Origin: an uncultured cyanobacterium
Lineage (GTDB): Bacteria; Cyanobacteriota; Cyanobacteriia; Thermosynechococcales; Thermosynechococcaceae
Direction of reading: 5' to 3'
Assembly: GCA_937951315.1 (NCBI GenBank)
Contig: CALFCG010000118.1
Location: 1-36,085, forward strand
Length of the DNA: 36,085 nt
Shown here: in pieces, positions 13,945-17,744 of the stretch
Layout of the letters: the number at the start of each line of letters is the position of its first letter
How positions within the stretch are numbered: position 1 is the stretch's first letter
Position numbers and translations under genes: made by a program
Notes under the pieces: model-generated
Told to the model about the DNA's origin: nothing
What the model saw: the letters and a program-made list of their open reading frames with translations, nothing else
Database searches by the model: none

Positions 13945-14804
13945 ACAATTGTGAGGAGTGGGTAGCTCCCAAAATTCTTCAGCACTTCTGTGACTGCCTT
14001 TAATTGCTGCCAAGCTGAGTCGAATGGAGCTGCTTCGGCATTGATCTCGGCATCAATAAAAAAGACATAATCCCCCATTGAACGACGGCTTGGCCTAGAC
14101 TCGATACGGCTCAAGTTAATATTTCGATCTGCAAATATCTGTAGGGCTTTGATGAGCGCTCCCGGCTGGTTTGCGGGCAAGCTGAAAGCAATTGACGTAT
14201 AAATTTGATCGGTTGTAATGACTGGAGGCAGATCTGTTGTTGCTTGTTGCTTAATAATCCAAAAGCGAGTGCAGTTGTCTGGGTGATCTTGAATGCTGCG
14301 TTTAATGATCGGCAAGCTGTAGAGCTCTGCTGCCCGTTCAGAAGAAATGGATGCAGCCTGCTGATTTGCTTGGACGTATTGAAGCGCTTCTGTCGTCGAA
14401 TTGGTGGCAATAGTGTTGGCCTTTGGGAGGTGGAGGGCTAGCCATCTTTGGCATTGTCCTAGCGCTTGAGGATGCGAGTAAACCGTGCTAATTTCCTCTA
14501 GATTATGGGTTTGAGCAATGAGGACATGTCTGATCGGTAACACTAAGGCCTGATGAATCTGAAGATCTGAGCATTGCCAGAATGTGTCAAGTGTCGTGGC
14601 GACACTGCCTTCAATTGAGTTTTCGACAGGTGCCATTGTCAGTTGTGTGTCCCCTTCCGCTGTTGAATGGATGGTGCGGGCAATACTGCTGCAGGGATGC
14701 AATGTCGTTGCGGTGGGGGAGGCAGAGATCAAGTCGATATACGCTAAGGCCGCTTGCTCAGCGTAGGTCCCTGGCGGACCGAGATGGGCGATTGACACAG
14801 TCAT
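13941..14804 (-). CDS. pheA: Prephenate dehydratase
   Basis: A 287-residue protein from ATG at 14804; the open frame runs further upstream but that part has no similarity pattern and would cross the divergent promoter region. It begins SIAHLGPPGTYAEQAALAY, the prephenate dehydratase signature, contains APVENSIEGSVATTLDTFW, and has NCTRFWIIKQQ at the end of the catalytic domain. A C-terminal ACT domain follows (IAFSLPANQPGALIKALQIF ... INLSRIESRPSRRSMGDYVFFIDAE), the site of phenylalanine feedback inhibition. It converts prephenate to phenylpyruvate in phenylalanine synthesis. There is no chorismate mutase domain. Confidence 0.95.
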   Translation of the reverse strand: MTVSIAHLGPPGTYAEQAALAYIDLISASPTATTLHPCSSIARTIHSTAEGDTQLTMAPVENSIEGSVATTLDTFWQCSDLQIHQALVLPIRHVLIAQTHNLEEISTVYSHPQALGQCQRWLALHLPKANTIATNSTTEALQYVQANQQAASISSERAAELYSLPIIKRSIQDHPDNCTRFWIIKQQATTDLPPVITTDQIYTSIAFSLPANQPGALIKALQIFADRNINLSRIESRPSRRSMGDYVFFIDAEINAEAAPFDSAWQQLKAVTEVLKNFGSYPLLTIV

Positions 14805-14954: not shown

Positions 14955-16490
14955 TTGCTTGAGGTAGACGTTCACCAGCAACTCCATGCTTTTTTGCGTG
15001 ATCAGGGAGAAACTCGCTGGCCCCATCATTTATCTGTGGCTCGTTTAGTGGCCCGTGCTTTACGTCTGCAACGCAGTGCTCTGATCCAGGTGAGTGCTGC
15101 CGCTCGATATCGTGGACATTATCGCTGTAGCTATCTTGTGCCGTTGCTCTTGTGGCCTGGGTTTGTTGTCTTAGTTGCGCCTGTTGCTGTTCAGCAGCGG
15201 CTTTTGCAAACAGATATTCCTAAGCTAAGCGAGTGTCTAGGCTTTAAAAAGCCAGTTTGTACGGCTCATCAATGGCCGGGTCCCCACTTTAATGGTCTCC
15301 TCATTCTTTCGCCTCGAGAATGGCTGTTACAGCGGTCTGAACTGGGTGTGCAACCTAAGAGTCTTGTGTTGTTAGATGGGGTGAATGAGTTAGAGGGCTG
15401 GACGCGTCAACATTTAACGCTGTCTCTTGATTTGCAGGACTGGGAGCAGTTGCGATGGTGTTATCCCCATCAGACGCAGCTGTTGCGGGGCGCGCGCGCC
15501 CAGTTGACTTGCAGTATTTTTCAACATCCTGTGAATCCCTATGGTTGTTCGGTGTTAACCGATGCTGAACGCCAGATTCTTGAGCATCTCCATCATGATT
15601 TACAGGGTTGTGATTTGAGCATGAGTCCCAAATCCTGGCAGCTATTTTGGCAACAGTATTCGCACTCTGATCAGTTGCTCTGGACCGAAATTCATCGTGA
15701 GCAAGGATCGTTTACGCTGCACTGTGCACCGATTGATGTGGAACCTTATTTGCGGACGGTGTGGGACCAGCAGACGACCGTACTGTTGGGGGGCGGGGGA
15801 GATGTTCATGCGAGCGCTCAGCTCTATGCGAAAACCTTGGGGATTGAAGATTTAACCTGTGTCCAGTTTGGAGCGGATCGCCATACAGAGGCAATCCAGC
15901 TCTATATTCCTGATGGTCTCCCCATGCCTAATACGCCTGAATTTCAGGCACGAATCATGATTCAAATTCATGAGCTGTTGGCTCTCAGTCGAGGGATGGG
16001 GCGGCCCACGGTGTTGGTAATTGATGATTTGCCTCTGAAGGCGCAGATTGCAGCTTTGTTAGCGGCTGAGTTTGGCTCTCGGGTTCAGATGGAGACACCT
16101 TCCCTGGGGCAAGACAGTATTCTGGTGACCGGTTGGGACTATTGGTTGCAGGTACAGCATCATATTCCGGCGCCACCTTTGTTGGTGATTGCGACCTTGC
16201 CGATTCCGTCTTTGGAAGACCCGCGAGTGGCGGGACGGGTGGCTTACTATAAACGACGACGCCAAGACTGGTTCCGGCTTTATCTGTTGCCCCAGACGCT
16301 ACGAATGCTGCAAGATGCGATCGCACCTGCCCGTGAACAAAAAGGTGTGGTTGCCCTTTTGGACGCCAGGGTTATCCATCGTAGCTACGGGCAACAGATT
16401 CTTGATGCGCTGAGTCCCTATGCGCGAATAAACTACCTCGACCCCAGCTTGTTTACCCCCTCTGCATTGCCGTTACTGGATCATGCCTAA
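14955..16490 (+). CDS. DinG/XPD-helicase-like protein with degenerate ATPase motifs
   Basis: A 511-residue protein starting at TTG 14955 (frame is closed by a TGA at 14922-14924; no ATG in between; the start is therefore uncertain by a few codons). Overall layout follows DinG/XPD helicases: an N-terminal region SALIQVSAAARYRGHYRCSY then LVPLL where the Walker A should be (41-65), LVLLDGVNELEGW where DEAH should be (138-149), LHCAPIDVEPYLRTVW (255-270) then LLGGGG in place of TSAT, and a C-terminal half with ILVTGWDYWLQVQ, LLVIATLPIPSLEDPRVAGR (409-428) and GVVALLDARVIHRSYGQQIL (464-483). The family resemblance is clear to me, but the nucleotide-binding lysine, the DEAH acid pair and the arginine finger Q-GR-IR all look lost. 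Function unknown; likely a structural or binding role. Confidence 0.72.
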   Translation: MLEVDVHQQLHAFLRDQGETRWPHHLSVARLVARALRLQRSALIQVSAAARYRGHYRCSYLVPLLLWPGFVVLVAPVAVQQRLLQTDIPKLSECLGFKKPVCTAHQWPGPHFNGLLILSPREWLLQRSELGVQPKSLVLLDGVNELEGWTRQHLTLSLDLQDWEQLRWCYPHQTQLLRGARAQLTCSIFQHPVNPYGCSVLTDAERQILEHLHHDLQGCDLSMSPKSWQLFWQQYSHSDQLLWTEIHREQGSFTLHCAPIDVEPYLRTVWDQQTTVLLGGGGDVHASAQLYAKTLGIEDLTCVQFGADRHTEAIQLYIPDGLPMPNTPEFQARIMIQIHELLALSRGMGRPTVLVIDDLPLKAQIAALLAAEFGSRVQMETPSLGQDSILVTGWDYWLQVQHHIPAPPLLVIATLPIPSLEDPRVAGRVAYYKRRRQDWFRLYLLPQTLRMLQDAIAPAREQKGVVALLDARVIHRSYGQQILDALSPYARINYLDPSLFTPSALPLLDHA

Positions 16491-16572: not shown

Positions 16573-16788
16573 ATGGGAGAAGCCAAACGTCGCCAGAATT
16601 CTCAGGGTGAACAGTACGGGAAAGACCCCAATATTTTGCCCTGGATTCCCTTTAGTGAGCGTCAGCTGATCCAGTTCTATAAAACAGCCAACAAAGGCGC
16701 TTGGATTGGGATTTTTATTGTTGCCATCGCTTGGGTTATTCTTCGCTTCATTGGTCCCCTCCTGGGTTTGTGGCAGGTTCAAGGGTGA
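16573..16788 (+). CDS. DUF2839 small membrane protein
   Basis: A 71-residue protein beginning MGEAKRRQNSQGEQYGKDPN, then ILPWIPFSERQ and one membrane segment (about 44-65, WIGIFIVAIAWVILRFIGPLLG). This is the pattern of the cyanobacterial DUF2839 family, with the MGEAKRR start seen in several short photosynthetic-organism proteins. Function unknown. GAGGGAAAA precedes the ATG. It lies 80 bases after the DinG-like gene on the same strand and may be read with it or alone. Confidence 0.85.
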   Translation: MGEAKRRQNSQGEQYGKDPNILPWIPFSERQLIQFYKTANKGAWIGIFIVAIAWVILRFIGPLLGLWQVQG

Positions 16789-16845: not shown

Positions 16846-16912
16846 TATCAACTACCATGTCATTTCGGTTTTGTGTTCATCAAGGCCTGTTGACACCTCC
16901 TGCGGGAGATAA

Positions 16913-16983
16913 GGTGGCATAGCCAAGTGGTAAGGCAGGGGCCTGCAAAGCCTTTATCCCCAGTTCGAATCTGGGTGCCACCT
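16913..16983 (+). tRNA. tRNA-Cys (anticodon GCA)
   Basis: Folds as a full cloverleaf. Acceptor GGTGGCA (16913-16919) pairs perfectly with TGCCACC (16976-16982); D arm GCC-AAGTGGTAA-GGC; anticodon arm GGGGC-CTGCAAA-GCCTT with anticodon GCA; T arm CCCAG-TTCGAAT-CTGGG. The discriminator base is T, as expected for cysteine tRNA identity. CCA is not encoded; the gene is followed directly by TTTT, which may help end transcription. Confidence 0.96.
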
Positions 16984-17111
16984 TTTTATTTCATTGAACT
17001 GAATAACAAAGTTCGTCAGCTGTCGCCATGCGCCTATGCTTATTTATGGGCCGCTGAGTCTGTTGCTAAGGGTCAAGTATCTATAATTCACCTGGTTAGG
17101 AGAGTCACAAG

Positions 17112-17744
17112 ATGGAAAAGACACCCAAGCCCGCTCTTGAACATCAAAATGTGCCGCAAAATCACCAAGGGTTGCATGATTTTCTCTATAGCTCAGGAGA
17201 TGAGCATAGTGTTTCTCAACAGACACCGGTTGTTCCTCACAGTCATGAAATGCTTGAGGTTGAGGCTTGGTTGACAACGGTTGCAGATCGGAAAATTGCG
17301 GGTGTTTATGCTGTCTTTGATCAGCAACATCAGGCCCAGTATGTGGGCTATTCCCGTAATGTGGGTCTTTCGTTAAGAGGGCATGTGACCGATAACGGTT
17401 CCCAGGTTTGTGCGTTTGTCCGGGTGCAGACTTTTCAGTTCCCGAAGCGATCTGAAATGGAAGCTCTGCGGGATGCCTGGATTGCTGAAATTGGGACGAC
17501 ACCCCCAGGGAATGAAGGGGATGGATCGTGGGCAGCAACCGTTGGTGCCAGCGCCGTGGCTGTGATGTCCCCCCAAGAGCGGGAGGCCCACGAAGCTAAA
17601 AAGCTGAAGTTGCGAACGGCAATGGCCGATGAGACGCTGCAGAAAGAGAAAGAAGCGGCATCTAAGGCTGAAAACTTGAAGTCGGCTGTAGAGGCTGATG
17701 ACTGGAGTGCCTTGATTGATGGACAAACTCAGGAGACGCGTTAG
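17112..17744 (+). CDS. GIY-YIG nuclease-fold protein, related to the domain in plastid glutaredoxin S16
   Basis: A 210-residue protein. The core (about 48-135) shows GVY (64-66), YVG (77-79) then SRNVGLSLRGH with R89, EMEALRDAWI with a conserved glutamate, and PPGN with N134, matching the order of GIY-YIG catalytic residues. After residue 150 the chain is a charged, lysine/glutamate-rich helix. The same kind of domain, with GVYAVxD and a loose YIG, sits in front of the glutaredoxin domain in plant chloroplast GrxS16; here there is no glutaredoxin part. DNA cleavage is possible but unproven. AGGAG precedes the ATG. Its last four bases overlap the convergent gene at 17741. Confidence 0.7.
   Translation: MEKTPKPALEHQNVPQNHQGLHDFLYSSGDEHSVSQQTPVVPHSHEMLEVEAWLTTVADRKIAGVYAVFDQQHQAQYVGYSRNVGLSLRGHVTDNGSQVCAFVRVQTFQFPKRSEMEALRDAWIAEIGTTPPGNEGDGSWAATVGASAVAVMSPQEREAHEAKKLKLRTAMADETLQKEKEAASKAENLKSAVEADDWSALIDGQTQETR

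Follow-up and report, generated by a model that had tools for sequence, protein, structure and literature searches.

A short type of DinG architecture was named sDinG in a 2025 review (PMC11981726, section 3.9). Its ATP-binding residues and the DNA-binding residues of MD1 are missing, an extra helix is present, and its function has never been studied; it was reported from Nostocales, Chroococcidiopsidales, and Pleurocapsales (PMC11981726). In the AlphaFold3 model of sDinG, only part of the ssDNA strand was placed, on MD2 and with poor confidence (PMC11981726). In Escherichia coli DinG (EcDinG), a proline-rich strand known as the P motif contacts ssDNA, and F638 stacks on the deoxyribose (PMC6300356). 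Our literature search found no paper on sDinG beyond PMC11981726, and a search on DinG in cyanobacteria, DUF2839, and DUF1815 found no functional data.

The sDinG Gene and Its Genomic Context

We analyzed a stretch of 36,085 nucleotides (the window) from an uncultured cyanobacterium, in which a protein that fits every sDinG feature of PMC11981726 tested here is encoded next to a small membrane-type protein:

14955..16490, + strand: sDinG, a short motif-less pseudohelicase with DinG/XPD fold, 511 amino acids (profile matches, homologs, and predicted fold)
16573..16788, + strand: DUF2839 small protein, the downstream neighbor in about half of the loci, which we do not regard as a functional partner

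The open reading frame of sDinG contains no internal stops and begins with TTG. This start is supported by the close homologs, most of which have a GTG start in the same position (VIEVEVHQQL in the homologs vs. LLEVDVHQQL in the window). The prephenate dehydratase gene (pheA), whose start is likely near 14804, is divergent from the sDinG gene, and genes for EF-G, EF-Tu, ribosomal protein S10, and a Lon N-terminal-domain protein are located upstream of sDinG. On the other side, the DUF2839 gene is followed by tRNA-Cys (16912–16984). Among these scanned neighbors, neither a CRISPR or mobile context nor the type IV cas genes that form the context of CasDinG were found, and no gene beside sDinG indicates a pathway. 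A 210-amino-acid open reading frame (window 17112–17744) downstream of tRNA-Cys has no Pfam match.

Relationship to DinG and Loss of Catalytic Motifs

Profile searches linked the protein to the DinG family. Pfam Helicase_C_2 matched residues 409–488 (5e-7, above the curated cut-off), the PADLOC model typeIV_DinG matched residues 210–499 (3e-36), and the best-scoring NCBIfam model was YoaA (4e-21), which matched residues 231–494 in the C-terminal half; the NCBIfam DinG and YoaA scores amount to roughly one-tenth of the equivalog score and lie far below the equivalog cut-off. Structure comparison was needed because a single-sequence search of PDB sequences gave chance-level matches only and the family profile matched none of them at E 0.001. 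An AlphaFold2 model of the window protein, built from 24 window and homolog sequences, reached a pLDDT of 86.8 and a pTM of 0.84. When compared with the PDB, it matched DinG both in Foldseek (6fws, E 1e-19) and in VIA-align, where 8zef was best, with an end-to-end alignment of 484 residues (Z 32.3, 3.8 A). After the DinG chains, the next structural matches were CasDinG and XPD; the DEAD-box RNA helicases Dbp5 and eIF4A were also matched (Z about 18–19 vs. 32 for DinG). The overall DinG/XPD fold is present in the predicted model, and the similarity to DinG greatly exceeds what chance would give. The initial annotation had matched the chain to a DinG-type helicase nearly end to end, and had named a missing match to SF2 helicases as the outcome that would speak against this; the strong DinG/XPD match agrees with its reading.

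Motif tables were derived from alignments of 89 to 110 sDinG members with true DinGs. The places of the lost motifs in the window protein are:

15093..15122, + strand: Walker A place, residues 47–56 SAAARYRGHY (DinG alignment; a short model helix, 48–53, in the P-loop position)
15375..15386, + strand: DEAH place, residues 141–144 DGVN (alignment; first Asp retained, Glu and His gone)
15789..15800, + strand: beside the SAT (motif III) place, residues 279–282 GGGG (DinG alignment)
16311..16334, + strand: motif VI place, residues 453–460 QDAIAPAR (alignment; QGxGRxxR lost)

In the model, helix 48–53 lies between strand 42–46 and helix 57–66. Throughout the family, the column of the Walker A lysine is occupied by Tyr, His, Trp, or Ser, and Lys was found in 0/110 members. 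The Asp of DEAH is often kept, Glu is mostly replaced by Gly, and His occurs in 7/110; SAT has mostly become G-[GS]-[AF], and the central Gly-Arg of motif VI mostly Ala-Pro. The Fe-S cysteine region is gone as well, its columns being gaps in the whole sDinG family, a loss that comes in addition to those listed in the initial annotation. Since ATP binding, ATP hydrolysis, and the Fe-S domain appear to have been lost, to judge from the sequences of 110 members, it is very unlikely that sDinG could translocate or unwind.

The motif letters originally read by eye (SAAARYRGHY, DGVN, LGGGG, and QDAIAPAR) do stand where GTGxGKS, DEAH, TSAT, and QGFGRLIR align in true DinGs. It had also been claimed that the long, intact frame is maintained, and full-length homologs across the class confirm this. 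Homologs of the same length that lack the same motifs occurred in every lineage tested, and decay specific to this strain was not seen (n = 110), so the sequences give good support to the suggestion of a helicase-fold protein that is conserved, restricted to cyanobacteria, and not an ATPase.

Residues Retained and Gained in sDinG

Three further segments were compared with DinG:

15018..15062, + strand: N-terminal signature, residues 22–36 WPHHLSVARLVARAL (the R..Q motif of DinG is replaced; W22, H24, R30, and R34 are nearly invariant in sDinG, not in DinG)
16194..16223, + strand: P-motif equivalent, residues 414–423 TLPIPSLEDP (DinG alignment; the ssDNA-contacting strand in DinG, PMC6300356)
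16266..16274, + strand: DWF, residues 438–440 (F440 aligns with EcDinG F638; Phe in 98/98)

Column comparison with DinG revealed that 23 of 64 DinG-invariant columns in HD2 are retained in sDinG; for HD1a, the initial portion of HD1, the count is only 2 of 29. The HD2 core (DWF, LP, D-x-R, and YG) is nearly invariant in sDinG, and W439, F440, D470, R472, and G479 are common to sDinG and DinG. The intercalating residue Y636 of EcDinG corresponds to Asp in sDinG, and the P-motif residues are mostly changed. The median pI of the family is 6.3, which is not strongly basic. The same comparison identified W22, H24, R30, R34, W163, and R476 as invariant in sDinG only. Because W22, H24, R30, R34, and other residues are conserved in at least 95% of sDinG proteins and not in DinG, HD1 of sDinG does not appear to be drifting freely.

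Distribution and Origin of sDinG

Profile searches detected sDinG in 183/186 sampled Cyanobacteriia genomes in a first draw, in 213/242 genomes in a second draw that partly overlaps the first, and in all 50 genomes examined of one cyanobacterial family. Usually one copy is present per genome, Prochlorococcus-sized genomes included, and the range spans the class, from Prochlorococcus-like genomes to Gloeobacter and the genomes of UCYN-A and Epithemia symbionts. The window protein is 42–55% identical to its homologs. Because there is usually one homolog per genome class-wide, orthology with the Nostoc PCC 7120 sDinG of PMC11981726 is very likely. No relative of sDinG was found in viral contigs at the sensitivity used.

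Among the listed genomes of the class that lack sDinG, all belong to one family (f26) except G440, which is 87% complete; the second draw (n = 242) contained 29 genomes with no sDinG match, of which 9 are outside this list. Family f26 is probably Pseudanabaenaceae, and one of its genomes, with a 328,634-base plasmid, is taken here to be Pseudanabaena PCC 7367. Members of f26 (G193, G282, G346, G462, and others) are of the thylakoid type and contain PsaK in addition to lacking sDinG. An assignment of f26 to Gloeobacter was rejected on the presence of PsaK; Gloeobacter corresponds to family f50. Canonical DinG was not found in the three f26 members searched. Because this family does without sDinG, the protein is not universally indispensable, and f26 represents a natural knockout lineage.

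Gloeobacterales (families f50 and f58) encode a full-length sDinG that lacks the motifs and, at a separate chromosomal site, a canonical DinG. We take f50 to be Gloeobacter, with G. violaceus PCC 7421 (4,659,019) and G. kilaueensis (4,724,791). Their canonical DinGs (L143–L150) are intact, with GTGTGKS, DEAH, and QGAGRL[IV]R, and no canonical DinG was found in the sampled Cyanobacteriia other than Gloeobacterales. When one sample was scored with the YoaA model, genomes of the class reached about 81 bits at most, and most non-photosynthetic phylum mates that have canonical DinG scored >500 bits. In an unrooted tree, all sDinGs clustered together (100/100) at the end of a long stem, with the Gloeobacter-type proteins branching first, and the canonical DinGs of Gloeobacterales grouped separately. 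The coexistence of both proteins in Gloeobacterales, together with the monophyly of sDinG and the first position of the Gloeobacter type, argues that the loss of the motifs from sDinG preceded the radiation of cyanobacteria, to judge from these sequences. The other lineages probably lost their canonical DinG afterwards. With a stem of this length and an unrooted tree, sDinG itself may have arisen either by duplication or from the type of DinG seen in the phylum mates.

Selection in Non-Photosynthetic Symbionts

Two UCYN-A-like genomes of 1.44–1.49 Mb and the genomes of Epithemia/Rhopalodia-type endosymbionts retain full-length sDinG; one of the former (1,443,806) is presumably UCYN-A ALOHA. 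In these genomes, genes of the psbA/psbD family are absent or broken. Fragments with several stops, which are visible pseudogenes of this family, were seen in two Epithemia-type endosymbionts (G147 and G268). Pairwise dN/dS values of sDinG among the UCYN-A-like and Epithemia-type genomes were 0.18, 0.17, and 0.23; sDinG is under purifying selection where photosystem II genes have been lost.

The DUF2839 protein is a small, single-helix membrane-type protein with an MGEAKRR N-terminus. Its gene lies just downstream of sDinG in 18/37 loci, Prochlorococcus-like ones included, and DUF1815 is linked to sDinG in 13/37 loci and is often next after DUF2839 in other genomes. In the Epithemia-type symbionts DUF2839 is broken or missing, and in the UCYN-A-like genomes it is unlinked to sDinG. 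Because sDinG is kept under purifying selection where psbA/psbD are lost, and because DUF2839 is broken, missing, or unlinked in the same symbionts, the function of sDinG is tied neither to photosystem II nor to DUF2839. DUF2839 also persists in the sDinG-less family f26. Both DUF2839 and DUF1815 were rejected as partners.

Possible Function of sDinG

We propose that sDinG is a pseudohelicase whose ancestor was a helicase of the DinG/XPD family and which arose before the living cyanobacteria radiated. HD2 is kept, including the strand rich in proline and the invariant Phe that touch ssDNA in E. coli DinG, and the former ATP-binding domain has a new set of invariant residues. Such a protein may sit on single-stranded or forked DNA without ATP and/or bind a partner via its remodeled HD1, and its role would be constitutive genome maintenance (replication or repair), unrelated to photosynthesis. 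In our opinion, there is somewhat less than an even chance that sDinG serves genome maintenance in this way, by binding ssDNA/forks or a partner independently of ATP; its DNA contact, partner, and pathway are inferred. A more far-reaching version, which we consider doubtful, would place sDinG in an ancient chromosome-maintenance core: It would have been a paralog beside DinG in the ancestor, outlived DinG except in Gloeobacterales, be needed in UCYN-A, and act as an ATP-free ssDNA/fork clamp or as a hub via the remodeled ATP cleft.

DNA binding itself may have been lost altogether, as the partial, poor-confidence AlphaFold3 placement of ssDNA would suggest (PMC11981726). The Asp in place of Y636, the altered P motif, the median pI of 6.3, the absence of sDinG from f26, and the lack of a neighboring gene that indicates a pathway also speak against our proposal. 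By analogy with RecC and AddB, sDinG might be a pure protein scaffold without nucleic acid contact, whose new HD1 surface (W22/H24/R30/R34) would hold a cyanobacterial partner. The loss of DinG residues from HD1 and the gain of sDinG-only invariants, the absent DNA contacts of MD1 (PMC11981726), and the near-neutral pI are consistent with this idea, which nevertheless seems rather unlikely to us; against it, HD2 has kept residues by which EcDinG contacts ssDNA (PMC6300356). Binding of RNA, with a role in transcription, RNA turnover, or ribosome assembly, would suit the housekeeping-type distribution and the structural matches to Dbp5 and eIF4A. We regard it as improbable, because these matches are weaker than those to DinG/XPD and the deoxyribose-stacking Phe is kept.

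The remaining explanations conflict with the data more directly. Although the loss of every catalytic motif might be expected of a degraded, functionless relic of DinG, the frame is full length in nearly every sampled Cyanobacteriia lineage, identity to homologs is considerable (42–55%), and dN/dS is about 0.2 in reduced genomes; there is next to no chance that sDinG is such a relic, which selection and distribution already contradict. YoaA being the best-scoring NCBIfam model, sDinG could work as YoaA does, in a pair with HolC, the chi subunit of polymerase III. The search for HolC (PF04364) was negative in all 77 Cyanobacteriia and positive in the controls, E. coli and Caulobacter; the pairing with HolC itself is thus excluded and a YoaA-like role in general is extremely unlikely, although a different clamp-loader partner may exist. 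A photosynthetic or thylakoid role together with DUF2839 is suggested by the adjacency of the two genes, and we consider it very unlikely: Genomes devoid of the psbA/psbD family have an intact sDinG, and the decay or unlinking of DUF2839 in symbionts already largely contradicts such a role.

A motif-less helicase fold under purifying selection across most of the class, including picocyanobacteria and a nitroplast-lineage genome, is probably hard to do without. UCYN-A is a lineage of nitrogen-fixing organelles, in which sDinG would still be needed if the chromosome-maintenance reading is true. Natural contrasts are available in Gloeobacter, where the dead protein occurs together with the live one, in f26, which has neither, and in the non-photosynthetic symbionts, which have the dead one only. 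There is also a risk of misannotation: The Helicase_C_2 match suggests an active ATP-dependent helicase, which is apparently absent from these cells.

Comparison with Known Systems

RecC and AddB are inactive helicase-fold subunits that serve as platforms for DNA or partners without ATPase motifs. They share with sDinG the retention of a helicase fold without these motifs; they differ in being SF1 folds within a fixed complex, whereas sDinG has no known partner. The ExoDinG of Staphylococcus aureus has an intact Walker A motif. It is a DinG relative with a pseudo-FeS domain and the best structural match of our model, and differs by an N-terminal exonuclease that sDinG lacks. This enzyme was reported to have no helicase activity in earlier work (cited in PMC11981726), although a 5′–3′ helicase activity is reported in a later study (PMC12345164). 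Canonical DinG/YoaA proteins of E. coli, non-photosynthetic phylum mates, and Gloeobacterales have the same domain order and fold, with DWF-LP, the P motif, and D-x-R...YG; unlike sDinG, they contain Walker A, DEAH, SAT, motif VI, and the Fe-S cysteines.

The closest match is the sDinG of PMC11981726, which is likewise cyanobacterial and consists of MD1, MD2, and a compact Arch, without an Fe-S or pseudo-Fe-S domain. ATP-binding residues are absent from both, and its extra helix between beta1 and alpha3 corresponds to helix 48–53 here. The two accounts differ in range, with three orders in the review, vs. nearly the whole class and coexistence with the Gloeobacterales DinG in our analysis. Thus, the sDinG group itself was already known (PMC11981726); new are its class-wide range, its coexistence with DinG in Gloeobacterales, its loss in one family, the sDinG-only signature of HD1, and its persistence under purifying selection in symbionts that are not photosynthetic.
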